A stretch of DNA of 64,000 nucleotides from Roseimicrobium gellanilyticum (GTDB lineage Bacteria > Verrucomicrobiota > Verrucomicrobiia > Verrucomicrobiales > Verrucomicrobiaceae): assembly GCF_003315205.1 (NCBI RefSeq), contig NZ_QNRR01000005.1, forward strand, positions 62,001 through 126,000, read 5' to 3'. The translations under genes were made by a program, and so were the position numbers. Positions 32,671 to 37,975 of the stretch are shown here, piece after piece (position 1 is the first letter of the stretch; each line of letters begins with the position of its first letter). The notes below the pieces were generated by a model. The model had not been told where the DNA came from. It saw only the letters and a program-made list of their open reading frames with translations, and made no database searches.

Positions 32671-32815
32671 GAAAGTAGTCCGCCGAGCCTTCGGCGGTCA
32701 GGGGGATTTCGCCCTTCAGCTCGCGAGTGGTCAGCTCGCTGACCGTCCGCGTCCGAGTTTCCGAGACGGGTGTTTTGGTGTTTCCCGACCGCCGAAGGCT
32801 CGGCGGACTACTTTC
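32671..32815. repeat. REPIN-like palindromic element, family 2
   Basis: A perfect 29-bp terminal inverted repeat (GAAAGTAGTCCGCCGAGCCT, 32671-32699; reverse complement 32787-32815) flanks an 87-bp core. Each arm holds the hairpin CCGCCGA-gcct-TCGGCGG. The right arm directly touches the stop codon of the HlyD-like gene. A single arm of the same sequence, one base shorter, occurs at 38021-38048. Confidence 0.85.
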
Positions 32816-33835
32816 TCACATCCCCGTCGCCAGCGTCTGCGGCATGGAGGTTTTGGCGGTGGGCAACTCCTCCATGAAAACGTCCACCTGCTGTCCGGGA
32901 AGGAAGCGATGTACCGAAGGTTCCAGGCGGTAGATGAGCTGTAGCACCCGCGTGTCCACACGCTCCGCTGCAGCACCGGTAAGACTCTGCTTCGGCACGA
33001 CAAGCGGTTCAATGCGCACAAACTTCAGGGGCGCAGACCGCGTGGAGTCGCCACGCATCTGGGCAATGGCGCGTGCTTCAGACGAGACACGCCAGGCGTC
33101 CTGCTCGTCCACGTCCACACGCACATGCAAGGGCAGGGTCTGACCAAGGATGAGATATGGTTGCGCTGCTGCGCCGGCCGTCGCGTGCTCTCCGGGGCGA
33201 ATGCGCACCTGCAGGACTTCACCGTCGATCAGCGCTGTCACCGTGCTGCGTTCAAGGTCCACACGCACCATGTTGCTGGCGGCCTCGGCAGCCTTGACTT
33301 GGGATTGGGCCGCTTCGGCTTCGGAGCGCGATGATTCCAGCGCGGCTTCACCCGTCTCTACTGCAGCGCGTTTCTGGGTCACTTCATCCGCACTGATGGT
33401 GCGTGAAGTCGTGAGCTTTTCCGCCGTGACCAGCAGAAGTTTCGCCTCCTTCAGCGCCGCCGCGGCTGTCTTCACTCGTGCATCGGCGCTGGAGGCGCTG
33501 GCGCGCAACGCAGTGACACTCGCTTCCTTCTCTGCGAGCTGGGCTTCAAGGGCGCGGGTGTCGAGCTTGAAAAGCGGTGCGCCGACCTTCACGCGGTCGC
33601 CCGCTTTCACGTACACCTTTTCCACCACACCTGGAAGGTGGGAGGACACGGAGATGATCTCCGAACTGGGCTCCACCAGGCCGATCCCGGCTACGGTGCG
33701 CTCAAAGGTGGAGCGCGGCGGTGGCATCGGAGGATCGACGCGCGGCGTGTGCGGCTGCGAACGCACCACGCTCAACGTGGCGTACGCGAGCAGTCCAACG
33801 CTGAGGATGGGCAGGAGAAGACCTTTTGTTTTCAT
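32816..33835 (-). CDS. HlyD-family membrane fusion protein of ABC exporter (DevB-like)
   Basis: A 339-residue periplasmic adaptor with one N-terminal membrane anchor (LLLPILSVGLLAYATLSVV). The first lipoyl half is ISVSSHLPGVVEKVYVKAGD, and long Ala/Glu-rich coiled coils follow at about 95-195. The second lipoyl half is LIDGEVLQVRIRPGEHA, and a beta-barrel (LHVRVDVDEQDAWRV) completes it. It should connect the ABC permease to an outer-membrane channel. The start overlaps the ATPase stop (ATGA). The stop codon directly abuts a REPIN-like element. Confidence 0.88.
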   Translation of the reverse strand: MKTKGLLLPILSVGLLAYATLSVVRSQPHTPRVDPPMPPPRSTFERTVAGIGLVEPSSEIISVSSHLPGVVEKVYVKAGDRVKVGAPLFKLDTRALEAQLAEKEASVTALRASASSADARVKTAAAALKEAKLLLVTAEKLTTSRTISADEVTQKRAAVETGEAALESSRSEAEAAQSQVKAAEAASNMVRVDLERSTVTALIDGEVLQVRIRPGEHATAGAAAQPYLILGQTLPLHVRVDVDEQDAWRVSSEARAIAQMRGDSTRSAPLKFVRIEPLVVPKQSLTGAAAERVDTRVLQLIYRLEPSVHRFLPGQQVDVFMEELPTAKTSMPQTLATGM

Positions 33836-34614
33836 AGGGCGACAGGGACGGTTGAGAATGTCTTGGAGGCGCGTGATTCCACCTCGGTGATGGCGCCGTC
33901 GTTCATGTGGGCGATGCGGTCGGCGTAGTGGAAGACGCGATTGTCATGGGTGACGACAATGACCGCGCGCTCGGGATGCACGGCAGAGTTCGCGAGGAGA
34001 TCCATCACGGCTTCACCCGTGTGGTGGTCGAGAGCGGCGGTGGGTTCATCGCAGATCAAAAGGCGTGGCTCATGCACGAGTGCGCGTGCCAGGGCCACAC
34101 GCTGCTGCTGGCCACCGGAGAGCGTGCGCGGATACGCGTTGGCGCGATGACCCAGGCCCAGTTGATCCAGCAGTTCGGTCGCACGGCGCACGGCCTTGGA
34201 GCGGTTCACACCCGCGGCCAGCAGAGGGACGGCGGCATTCTCCGCGGCGGTGAGGGCGGGGAGGAGATTGTACTGCTGGAAGACGAAGCCAAGGTTCTGC
34301 CGGCGGAACACGATCTGATCGCGCGGACTGAGGGCGGACCAGCGTTCTCCAAACAAGGTGACTTCGCCGTCGCTGAAATCCAGCAGGCCCGCGATCACGG
34401 AGATGAGCGTGGTCTTTCCACAGCCGCTTGGTCCTACGAGAAAAGTCATTTCACCAGGGGCGGCAGTGAAGTCGACGCCACGCAGGACATCGACCTTCGC
34501 CTCGCCCGTGCCGAAGGACTTGCGGATTCCTTCGCAACGGACGGCAGGTTCGGTTTCCACCAATGAGTGCATAAAGGTTTGTGAAGGCATGTGCATGGTC
34601 ATGGTCGCATTCAT
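33832..34614 (-). CDS. ABC exporter ATP-binding protein (DevA/LolD/MacB type)
   Basis: A 260-residue ATPase with Walker A VGPSGCGKTTL, signature LSGGQQQRVALARAL, Walker B LLICDEPTAALD and the H-loop VVTHDNRV. It drives the FtsX-type permease encoded immediately upstream: the permease stop and this start are adjacent with no gap. The N-terminal 18 residues (MNATMTMHMPSQ...) precede the domain, so a shorter start is possible. Second-last gene of the overlapping exporter operon. Confidence 0.93.
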   Translation of the reverse strand: MNATMTMHMPSQTFMHSLVETEPAVRCEGIRKSFGTGEAKVDVLRGVDFTAAPGEMTFLVGPSGCGKTTLISVIAGLLDFSDGEVTLFGERWSALSPRDQIVFRRQNLGFVFQQYNLLPALTAAENAAVPLLAAGVNRSKAVRRATELLDQLGLGHRANAYPRTLSGGQQQRVALARALVHEPRLLICDEPTAALDHHTGEAVMDLLANSAVHPERAVIVVTHDNRVFHYADRIAHMNDGAITEVESRASKTFSTVPVAL

Positions 34615-35754
34615 TCATCCCCGGAAGACGGTGGCGGGCTCCAGCACGAGCACGCGGCGGAGGCTGGCAATGCTGGCCAGCAGCACCACGGTGAGCATCA
34701 GCACGCCCACGCCCGCAGCGCTCTGCCACAGCAGCACGAAGTGACGGGTGGCGACCTTGTGGCTGGTGATTTCGAAGAACGTGGCACCAAGCGCGGTGCC
34801 AATCGCAAAGCCGACGAACCACACGATGAAGGCCTGCAGCAGGATCATGCCGAGCAGCCGTGCATTCGTTACCCCGATGGCCTTGAGCGCACCGAACTGC
34901 TTGAGGTTTTCAACCGTGAAAAGGTAGAAGGTCTGCCCTGCCACCACGAGTCCCACCAGGATGCCCACACCGATGGTGATGCCGAAATTCACCGGGATGC
35001 CGGTGTTCTTCATGTAGTAGCCCACACAGTCCCACATGAACTGCAGCGTGGTCCGCGCCTTCAGTCCCGTGGCGGTGCTGATGCGAGTGGCGAGCTCTTC
35101 GGGGGTCACGCCTGGCTTGGCGCCCACGAGCACATAGGAGAGTTGCTGGCGCTGGCGTCCCTGGAAGTTCAACGCCTCGCTGTAGCGCGCGTGGATGATG
35201 GGGAAGGAGACAAAGGCAGGTAGTGCATCCGAGATGCCCACGATCTCCACGCGATTGTCATTGAGCTCCAGTGTCTGTCCCAGCTCCAGCGGACGACCGG
35301 GGAAGAGCATGAGGTACCCGGCTTTGTCGATGATGATGGAGTTCGGATTGCGAAGGTCCTCCCACTTGCCCAGCAACATGTTGCGCGGTGCACCGAGGAG
35401 CGTCGCTTCGTCGATGCCCAGCACGGTGCAGGCGGCGAAGGTGCCATCCACCGTGCGTGCCACCGGCGTCCCTTTGAAGAGGCGCACCGCATAGTCCACG
35501 CCTTCCACACCGCGCACGCGGGCGAGGTCGGTGTCCTTCAGGGGTTTGGTTTCGTCAAAGTAACGGGTGCGGGGATCCATGACCCACACGTCCGCATCCG
35601 CCACATCCAGTATCTGGTGGCCCGTCCGCTTCATCAGCCCTGCGAAGATCGACGTCTGGTTCTGCAGCAGGAAGGTGGAGAAGGCGATCGCGAAGATGAG
35701 CCCGATGTACTTGGCCCGATCTCCCACCAGCATGCGAAAGGCGACGAAGTTCAT
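34615..35754 (-). CDS. ABC exporter permease, FtsX/DevC type
   Basis: A 379-residue permease: one N-terminal helix (YIGLIFAIAFSTFLLQNQTS), a periplasmic MacB-like domain of about 210 residues, then three C-terminal helices (ITIGVGILVGLVVAGQTFYL; LLGMILLQAFIVWFVGFAIG; AAGVGVLMLTVVLLASIASL). FtsX-type permeases work in lipid, lipoprotein or small-molecule export. The TKPLKD-like loop and ENLKQFGALKAIGVTNARLL are typical of the DevC branch. It follows the TetR gene after a 63-bp gap that contains a TGACT-N3-AGTCA palindrome. Confidence 0.92.
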   Translation of the reverse strand: MNFVAFRMLVGDRAKYIGLIFAIAFSTFLLQNQTSIFAGLMKRTGHQILDVADADVWVMDPRTRYFDETKPLKDTDLARVRGVEGVDYAVRLFKGTPVARTVDGTFAACTVLGIDEATLLGAPRNMLLGKWEDLRNPNSIIIDKAGYLMLFPGRPLELGQTLELNDNRVEIVGISDALPAFVSFPIIHARYSEALNFQGRQRQQLSYVLVGAKPGVTPEELATRISTATGLKARTTLQFMWDCVGYYMKNTGIPVNFGITIGVGILVGLVVAGQTFYLFTVENLKQFGALKAIGVTNARLLGMILLQAFIVWFVGFAIGTALGATFFEITSHKVATRHFVLLWQSAAGVGVLMLTVVLLASIASLRRVLVLEPATVFRG

Positions 35755-35783
35755 GTCTAAATCGATGAATGAGATTCAATAAA

Positions 35784-35796
35784 TGACTGGAAGTCA
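35784..35796. promoter_or_regulatory. Candidate TetR operator 1 (exporter promoter)
   Basis: TGACT-gga-AGTCA, a 5+3+5 palindrome, lies 30 bp before the permease start. The same arms with a different spacer occur at 36566-36578 near the TetR start, which makes both sites good operator candidates for the adjacent TetR protein. Confidence 0.6.
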
Positions 35797-35817
35797 GTTT
35801 TGGGCCAAAAAAAGGGA

Positions 35818-36597
35818 CTACTTGGCTTTGAACCAGTTCGACTCGGGAAAGATCTCGTCATGGATGCGCTTGTCAGAGGAGGCGTAGTCGAAGTCGCGGA
35901 AGAGCGGTTTCCAACCCATGCCATCCAGTACGAGGTCCTGGTTCACCCGGACAATCGTCGCGGCGTCCTCGATCCCGGCCAGCACCCGCAGGTCATGTAC
36001 CTGGGTCATGATGTGACTGCCCATGGTCATGGCAATCAGGGAGAAGGCCTGTAACTCCGTGGTCATGTGGGGTGAGGGAGGCAGGTCACCGCTGGTCTGG
36101 CCATCGATGATGGCCTTGTGCACCGTGCGAAAGCACCGCCCCCCCTCGACGGCGTGCTTTTGCCGCTGGGCCTCCGAGGCCTTTTCCCAGAAGGAATCAC
36201 TCTTCAGCATGAGCTCCGCGCTGAAGTAGTTCGGATACGTGAGCATGAACTCCACACAGGCATAGCCGATGGCGCGGATGCGTTCCCGACTGCCACCTGT
36301 GAACTTCAGCGCACGCTCAAAGAGGTCCGCCCGATGCCGTAGCGCTCTGGTGGCCACGGCCAAGGCCAGGTCCTCCTTGGACTGGAAGTGGAGGTAGATG
36401 GTCCCCTTGGAGTACTCCACCGCTTGGGCCAGCTCGTCCAGGTTCACGTCCTGATACCCGTCACGCCGGAACAAACGCTGGGCGTGGTCGAGGATGAGTT
36501 CCTCCCTTGCCTGGCGCTCGCGTTCTTTGCGGGTAGCGGTCACAGTACCCACATTGGCAGGTTTTTGACTCTCAGTCAAATTCTTCTTTCGAGTCAC
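35818..36597 (-). CDS. TetR/AcrR family transcriptional regulator
   Basis: A 259-residue regulator. A TetR_N helix-turn-helix lies at about 30-78 (ILDHAQRLFRRDGYQDVNL, AVEYSKGTIYLHFQSKEDLA), and the rest is the ligand-binding and dimerisation domain. The open frame starts with GTG at 36597, overlapping the upstream gene's stop (GTGA). However, a TGACT-N3-AGTCA palindrome falls on codons 7-11 of this reading, so a later GTG (codon 16 or 19) is equally possible. It lies inside the membrane-protein/exporter operon and probably represses it until an exported compound binds. Confidence 0.88.
   Translation of the reverse strand: MTRKKNLTESQKPANVGTVTATRKERERQAREELILDHAQRLFRRDGYQDVNLDELAQAVEYSKGTIYLHFQSKEDLALAVATRALRHRADLFERALKFTGGSRERIRAIGYACVEFMLTYPNYFSAELMLKSDSFWEKASEAQRQKHAVEGGRCFRTVHKAIIDGQTSGDLPPSPHMTTELQAFSLIAMTMGSHIMTQVHDLRVLAGIEDAATIVRVNQDLVLDGMGWKPLFRDFDYASSDKRIHDEIFPESNWFKAK
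36566..36578. promoter_or_regulatory. Candidate TetR operator 2 (TetR start region)
   Basis: TGACT-ctc-AGTCA, extending to TTTGACT-ctc-AGTCAAA (36564-36580, perfect 7-bp arms). It shares its arms with the site at 35784-35796. It lies at the very start of the tetR reading frame, close to the end of the upstream membrane-protein gene. Confidence 0.6.
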
Positions 36598-37514
36598 AAA
36601 GTCGGCTCCTTCCTGAGGGAGAGTGCCCCGGACTTCCTACCCTTCGCCAACCACCACATCCAGAAGGGGATATTCACCAGAAAGATGAAGCACATCATCT
36701 GGTTCACCCGGAAGTCGAGCTGCATGATCAACTCCACTCCGAAGTGGAAGGCAATGATGCTCAGTCCGATGAAAAGCGCCCATGCACGGTTCCAGAGGGC
36801 AAGGAAGGCAAACAGCTCCAGCATGAACCCGGCGCCAAACGCGAGGCGGGTGACGACGTGGTGCTCTGCCAGCCACTGGGCGATGGCTGATACCTGTGGC
36901 ACTGCGAGACCCTCTGGGTTGTCATAGAAGGTCTGCCGGTGGGTCTTGACGATCGACTTCGCGAGGTAGTGGCTACGGAAAAGCCAGAGCCCATCGGACT
37001 TGCTCAGTTTCGTGATGGCGGAGGTCACGTACACCGCGGCGATGGCGCACTGTGCGAAGTAGAGCTGATACCCATGGCGCACTGCATCCGCCACGGCGCC
37101 CCCCTTCTCCAACAGCGGCCGGATCCTCCACCACAGCTCGGCGACGCATTGGGCGATCAACACAAGGCCGATGATGTTGTACCCGTGGTAGGTGAAGCCC
37201 TGGGAATTCTGGAGCGTGTTGTAGCCCAGGTGAGCCAGTGTCAGCACCACGAGGCCAAGGGGATTCAGCCACTCAAGTACGTATAAGATGGCCGCGCCGA
37301 TGATGAGCGGGCGGAACCACAGCATGGCATCCTCACCACCCAGGAACTCCAGCGGTATGATGCGGGCCAACCCGTTGGGTACCTCCATCTTCTCAAAGGG
37401 AAGCACCTTCCACATGCACCACACGGCGGTGATGGCAAAGAGGAGGCGCATGAGCCGCGCCTCCCAAGGTCCCACGTTCACGGGGCGGAATGCCTGGGGA
37501 GAAAGCTTGATCAT
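36594..37514 (-). CDS. HTTM-like polytopic membrane protein
   Basis: A 306-residue membrane protein with about seven hydrophobic helices. The layout, with a His/Asn-rich loop (GYNTLQNSQGFTYHGYNIIG) and a mid-protein segment SAITKLSKSDGLWLFRSHYL, resembles HTTM proteins related to vitamin K-dependent gamma-carboxylase. That assignment is moderate. It overlaps both neighbours by 4 bp: its start overlaps the stop of the small protein gene upstream and its stop overlaps the TetR start. It therefore belongs to the regulated exporter operon. Function is not known. Confidence 0.65.
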   Translation of the reverse strand: MIKLSPQAFRPVNVGPWEARLMRLLFAITAVWCMWKVLPFEKMEVPNGLARIIPLEFLGGEDAMLWFRPLIIGAAILYVLEWLNPLGLVVLTLAHLGYNTLQNSQGFTYHGYNIIGLVLIAQCVAELWWRIRPLLEKGGAVADAVRHGYQLYFAQCAIAAVYVTSAITKLSKSDGLWLFRSHYLAKSIVKTHRQTFYDNPEGLAVPQVSAIAQWLAEHHVVTRLAFGAGFMLELFAFLALWNRAWALFIGLSIIAFHFGVELIMQLDFRVNQMMCFIFLVNIPFWMWWLAKGRKSGALSLRKEPTL

Positions 37515-37975
37515 CCTTCGCCAAGCACCTGGGGTTCCTCGCGGAAGGCCGCGCCGTCCTTGTAGTCCTGATAGATCAACACATTCGTGATGCGCACCTT
37601 GTCCGGCAGCGGACGCTTGCGCTTGTCTGCGAGCTCACGCAACTGCCGCATAGTTTCCGCGAACACCTTCGCGCGGATCTCTGGCGTCGCTTCCGTGGGT
37701 TCGATGTCCAGCTTGCTGCAGGTGCGGTTGAGACGCTCGGTGTAGATCTTCTTCACCTTCGCGGAACTCAGTCCGGTCATGTGCTTCACATTGATCGGAT
37801 TGCCAGCGCCATCCGCCACGATCAGGTAGTCGGAAGGGTGCGGGCTGGGATCCGCATACATCGGGAAGCTGTTGAAGGGGTACGCATTCTTCACCACCCG
37901 GCACAGCAAAACGAGCACCACCATCATCATGACGGGATGAATCAGCATGCGTGCGATGCGGGACCACATGCTCAT
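37511..37975 (-). CDS. Single-helix membrane protein, HTTM-associated
   Basis: A 154-residue protein with one N-terminal helix (PVMMMVVLVLLCRVV), then AYPFNSFPMYADPSPHPSDY, a motif often seen in small proteins encoded beside HTTM membrane proteins. The rest is soluble and probably outside the cytoplasm. Its stop overlaps the start of the HTTM-like gene (ATGA). It is the first gene of the five-gene overlapping operon ending in the exporter. No enzymatic motif is visible. Confidence 0.7.
   Translation of the reverse strand: MSMWSRIARMLIHPVMMMVVLVLLCRVVKNAYPFNSFPMYADPSPHPSDYLIVADGAGNPINVKHMTGLSSAKVKKIYTERLNRTCSKLDIEPTEATPEIRAKVFAETMRQLRELADKRKRPLPDKVRITNVLIYQDYKDGAAFREEPQVLGEG

Follow-up and report, generated by a model that had tools for sequence, protein, structure and literature searches.

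A 64,000-base stretch of the Roseimicrobium gellanilyticum genome (hereinafter the window) carries matching palindromes on both sides of a TetR-family gene, and these are very probably the operators of the protein encoded between them, which is predicted to act on both tetR itself and the ABC exporter operon that follows it. The outcome of our comparative analysis is a well-supported, sequence-based assignment of a regulator to its putative operators at an as yet uncharacterised exporter found in Verrucomicrobiota and some relatives, along with a corrected start for the regulator and a predicted tandem operator with an 18-bp phasing. The relevant features of the window are:

32816-33835, minus strand: membrane fusion protein, HlyD/DevB-like, probable target (HlyD_D23; NCBIfam models below cut-off).
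33832-34614, minus strand: ABC ATPase, DevA/LolD-like, probable target (PF00005; TIGR02982 below cut-off).
34615-35754, minus strand: ABC permease of the DevC/MacB type, probable target (MacB_PCD and FtsX domains).
35766-35778, unstranded: O2, predicted weaker exporter-side operator 18 bp from O1, TGAAT-GAG-ATTCA (TGAATGAGATTCA), at the +18 offset peak.
35784-35796, unstranded: O1, predicted strong exporter-side operator, TGACT-GGA-AGTCA, with at most one base changed in 30 loci.
35803-35813, minus strand: T-tract TTTTTTTGGCC, seen as conserved columns when 28 gaps are aligned; it may belong to the exporter promoter.
35818-36543, minus strand: tetR with revised start GTG 36541-36543, 241 aa (TetR_N PF00440, E 2e-14; start position conserved).
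36564-36580, core 36566-36578, unstranded: O_R, predicted operator before tetR, TTTGACT-CTC-AGTCAAA, with the exact core in 30 of 35 tetR loci.
36594-37514, minus strand: uncharacterised ORF next to tetR.

As an earlier note on this DNA had claimed, the pattern TGACT-N3-AGTCA (TGACTNNNAGTCA) occurs exactly at 35784-35796 and 36566-36578. The window has no other copy; shuffled windows hold a mean of 0.04 copies, with none of 100 reaching two. The extension of the tetR-side arms to 7 bp also reads as described (36564-36580), as against only 5 bp at 35784-35796. The palindrome placed just before the permease start lies 29 bp ahead of the ATG (35754) and 21 bp beyond the tetR stop, and O_R falls within codons 7-11 of the longest tetR ORF (35818-36597). 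On the genome-wide occurrence of the 13-mer, which the note had made a test of its reading, the answer is twofold: the 7,930,206 bases in 32 contigs contain five copies and none of the backwards pattern, and scaling the shuffle rate to the genome gives an expectation of about five. The remaining three copies sit inside ORFs of 231, 360 and 598 aa, none similar to the tetR operon. The genome total is ordinary, but chance does not predict that two of the copies should flank a single regulator at a distance of 782 bp. With up to one mismatch allowed, this genome has 18 sites as compared to 20 in the reversed control, and a wider regulon was rejected since such sites are no commoner than the control. 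By the extended 17-base score, the O1 of the window is unremarkable (10 of 14, equalled by 58 of 300 shuffles), and hence the case for it is made by the 13-base core and the relatives only.

These relatives were gathered by protein searches with tetR, which gave matches in 15 of 57 genomes (its own and relatives), 33 matches in 386 genomes of the order and six in 387 of the phylum. The resulting set comprises 35 loci, namely the window and 34 fetched sequences, and leaves out G349, where tetR is split over two contig ends. Across these loci, which are related to each other so that the counts are not independent, the exact TGACYNNNRGTCA is found just before tetR in 30, and these same 30 have a copy differing by at most one base between tetR and the gene that follows, which is usually a DevC/MacB-type ABC permease. 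The gap site is exact in 21 of them and has one base changed in seven, as well as in G358 and G659, where it was missed by the 17-base score but is visible in the sequence itself. The other five loci, distant paralogs with 36–40% identity, have TGACYNNNRGTCA in neither place, and no such permease was detected downstream of them in the DNA examined (a short stretch for G065). In 28 of the 30 loci none of 300 dinucleotide shuffles equals the upstream score, with 2/300 and 1/300 doing so in the other two. The comparison of the 35 loci therefore settles the pairing as real and not a coincidence.

The exporter side bears a second palindrome, O2, which is new here and was overlooked in the earlier reading of the window. 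When offsets of 13–35 were scored against TGACYNNNRGTCA in the 30 loci, +18 stood out with a mean of 6.87 out of 10, the next best offset reaching 3.97, while the same scan on the tetR side gave no comparable peak. In the window O2 has perfect 5-bp arms, and the gap alignment at O1 displays a conserved GACC-like half-site after it. A further 12 loci outside the discovery set yield a mean of 7.25 at +18 against 4.5 for the next best; several of these are closely related to one another or to loci used in the discovery, making them support and not an independent sample. They represent all members with an exporter-side site in a group of 15 additional, distinct named relatives (identity 48% or higher); the three left out are L125 (tetR-side predicted operator present, exporter-side site not detected), L143 (tetR-side predicted operator present, with no gap as tetR abuts the permease) and L156 (sequence ends). 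O2 might instead be no TetR site at all and owe its conservation to the promoter or the translation start, its right arm abutting the ATG (TTCATG) in many loci and its palindromy being weak in most; we regard this as unlikely, given that the +18 offset also stands out where the ATG is further off, as in the window and several of the 12 further loci. Hence, we favor reading O2 as a weaker operator of the same regulator.

Both the restriction of the motif and its movement bear on which protein might bind it. In the 15 tetR-bearing genomes, 20 of the 21 exact matches to TTGACYNNNRGTCAA are at this operon, which points to a predicted local regulator and no regulon motif. The 42 genomes without a tetR ortholog show 19 matches versus 38 for a reversed-pattern control, and none of the 12 compared is similar to the tetR operon. 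In G023, G033 and G188 an insert, coding in G023 for a cupin protein, places the permease about 520 bp further away, and the site is still directly after tetR, 17 bp ahead of the new first start codon in G023 and G033. In G119 (L107), a fusion protein and an AcrB-type RND pump come after tetR and its two sites, in place of the ABC exporter. As the pair is kept with either the cupin insert (G023, G033) or the RND pump (G119), the predicted sites go with the regulator and not with the exporter. The cupin gene (PF07883) inserted between the exporter-side predicted operator and the permease is at L028:4288-4761 (minus strand).

Separately, G019 encodes a second TetR-family protein (TetR_N and TetR_C_6; L025:4815-5567, plus strand) between two permease genes, and other two-permease loci have a gap of similar size. 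The identity of the regulator at the sites being a prediction from sequence, they could conceivably be bound by another protein, either a global regulator or the second TetR of some of these operons such as that of G019. We hold this to be highly improbable: the motif is at or below chance elsewhere in these genomes, no second permease or second TetR was seen in the window operon, and the pair stays with this tetR even where the cargo genes differ. The operator reading that the earlier note offered for both sites is thus favored by their presence upstream in 30 of 35 loci, downstream in the same 30 (at most one base changed), and their near-restriction to this operon, and the TetR encoded between them stays the protein predicted to bind these sites.

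A consensus scan for sigma-70-like promoters found none at either site, and the aligned loci have no convincing -10 box; that no promoter could be assigned is a point against the operator reading. The notion of chance palindromes, or of mere promoter hexamers (TTGAC resembling the sigma-70 -35 box), draws on the chance-level genome total of five and can be dismissed, as shuffles seldom reach the site score and conservation in the 30 loci extends beyond TTGAC to both arms and spares the spacer, the tetR-side arms TTTGAC and GTCAAA being nearly fixed in the aligned loci around three variable central bases. A tract of six to seven Ts, often followed by GCC, lies at a fixed distance before O1 in nearly all 28 aligned loci. 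None of 26 loci has a Shine-Dalgarno-like motif ahead of the permease; a leaderless permease mRNA was not deduced from this, since the motif is scarce ahead of the ATPase as well (4 of 25; background 12%). Near-identical GC-rich hairpins followed by ACTACTTTCT flank the operon region at 32789-32806 (plus strand) and 38046-38030 (minus strand) of the window; they are oppositely oriented and perhaps represent a dispersed repeat.

The tetR product displays the TetR_N helix-turn-helix domain (PF00440) with 53.3 bits against a gathering score of 24, and all 17 NCBIfam models for named TetR equivalogs (RutR, AcrR, AcuR etc.) score far below their curated cut-offs. The palindromic operator at the regulator's own or a neighboring promoter that is typical of the TetR family is matched here by the predicted sites and their conservation. 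The DevBCA models likewise all stay under their cut-offs (DevA 220.9/295.8, DevC 56.1/290.35 and DevB 56.7/129 bits); the exporter is of the same general type as DevBCA and outside that subfamily. Directly 5′ of tetR are two ORFs of 306 and 154 aa (36594-37975) that match neither Pfam nor NCBIfam families at E 0.001 and were detected among the 35 loci only in the window and a sister genome.

The same sister genome helps place the start of tetR, which had been proposed to lie after 36566 at a later GTG. The GTG at 36541-36543 is 22 nt after O_R, at the start position of the relatives, and the other candidate (36550-36552) reads GTA in the sister genome. In 26 of the 30 loci, an ATG or GTG in frame with tetR follows 20–26 nt past the site; in G051, G069 and G072 an in-frame start codon follows at 49 nt, and G310 has none. 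Between the window and the sister genome, codons 1–18 of the long frame have five amino-acid-changing differences (one of them in the first codon itself) and two silent ones, as compared to 11 and 69, respectively, in the rest of the gene (Fisher p 0.002), an excess by which the long TetR N-terminus looks untranslated, in support of the proposed later start. In L094 (G310) and L113 there is no ATG, GTG or TTG between the predicted operator and the conserved domain, and an ATC occurs exactly 22 nt past the predicted operator, at the start position of the relatives, perhaps serving as a rare start codon.

A scan of named genomes, from which 80 of 506 loci were kept, brings the total to 91 distinct loci. 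TGAC-N5-GTCA is present upstream in 43 of 44 loci with at least 48% identity (the miss, L148, being a cut-off sequence) and in 23 of 47 with 30–47%, against shuffle rates of 0.04–0.33% (upstream, 91 loci; shuffles keeping base counts only); in the gap it is seen in 33/44 and 12/47, respectively. Both sites keep their original form in Plasticicumulans acidivorans. In more distant loci the upstream sites drift: TTGACG...CGTCAA is seen mostly among Planctomycetes, TTGAAY...RTTCAA in some Proteobacteria. Five proteobacterial loci (L186, L187, L190, L191 and L192) combine a single upstream TTGAAT-like palindrome with a changed helix, YA[TIV]GTLYQHF, which suggests a shifted putative operator. The recognition helix reads YSKGT in all 30 operator-bearing loci and not in the five site-less ones; YSKGT was rejected as a strict operator signature, as L117, L118, L119 and L143 read YAKGT and yet carry the predicted operator. 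An association of arm base 6 (T/C) with a helix residue (L/Q) was not used, its Fisher p of 0.0008 ignoring relatedness. The half-site drift among relatives could offer a natural series for how TetR proteins choose DNA.

Taken as a circuit, and borrowing partly from the characterized FhtR and AcuR mechanisms, a TetR dimer on O_R, immediately before the tetR start codon, would limit its own synthesis, while a dimer on O1, probably joined by a second dimer on the weaker O2 18 bp away, would shut the promoter of the permease–ATPase–fusion protein operon. A small ligand, probably the substance that the exporter removes, would then release TetR. More tentatively, and with somewhat less than even confidence, we posit that this TetR represents a subfamily so far unnamed and having a distinct operator, TTTGACYNNNRGTCAAA, which would use a single site for itself and a strong-plus-weak tandem phased by 18 bp at the exporter. 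If true, this asymmetry may be the working principle, with two dimers holding the pump under tight, perhaps cooperative, control and the regulator being controlled more loosely. A literature search, which reached few subscription papers, returned no match for ten spelled-out operator motifs or for the RutR motif.

As a circuit type, an efflux pump under a local TetR repressor that also regulates itself is ordinary and already known. Against the RutR model the tetR product scores 30.8 bits, with a cut-off of 368. The RutR half-site is TTGACC, with a spacing of 2 between longer arms. The palindromic site of E. coli RutR is given as about 16 bp (PMC10891134), a length shared by the site described here, which has a spacing of 3. 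For tripartite pumps, local TetR regulators with palindromic sites are presented as usual, the regulator gene being divergent from the pump in most cases and the intergenic site shared (review PMC8277102). The present system is of the same general type as these and the DevBCA exporters in combining permease, ATPase and fusion protein, and differs from most of them in that tetR points the same way as the pump genes, with one site at the start of tetR and another at that of the exporter. AcuR of Rhodobacter sphaeroides is described as first in its own operon, with an inverted repeat, TAATAGAC-n6-GTCTATTA, that overlaps the acuR promoter directly ahead of the start codon; this one site serves the operon as a whole, the gene lying between acuR and acuI is reported without a separate promoter, and AcuR relatives are noted in Verrucomicrobia (PMC3017554). 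Here too a TetR gene stands ahead of the operon with a palindrome just before its start codon; however, the operator sequence differs and there are sites at both tetR and the exporter. In Enterococcus faecalis, the account of FhtR/HrtBA has a TetR-family repressor control a MacB-family ABC exporter via two palindromes at the exporter promoter, 14-nt sites of the TTATCAATCGATAA type that together are proposed to give tight repression, with fhtR described as monocistronic and not autoregulated (PMC7858072). Our system resembles it in the TetR-family regulator, the MacB-type exporter and the two predicted exporter-side palindromes; in contrast to FhtR, a site also precedes the regulator and the site sequence is different. 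By analogy with FhtR and AcuR, the locus is hence best read as that of a putative local TetR repressor with one operator of its own and a tandem operator for the pump.
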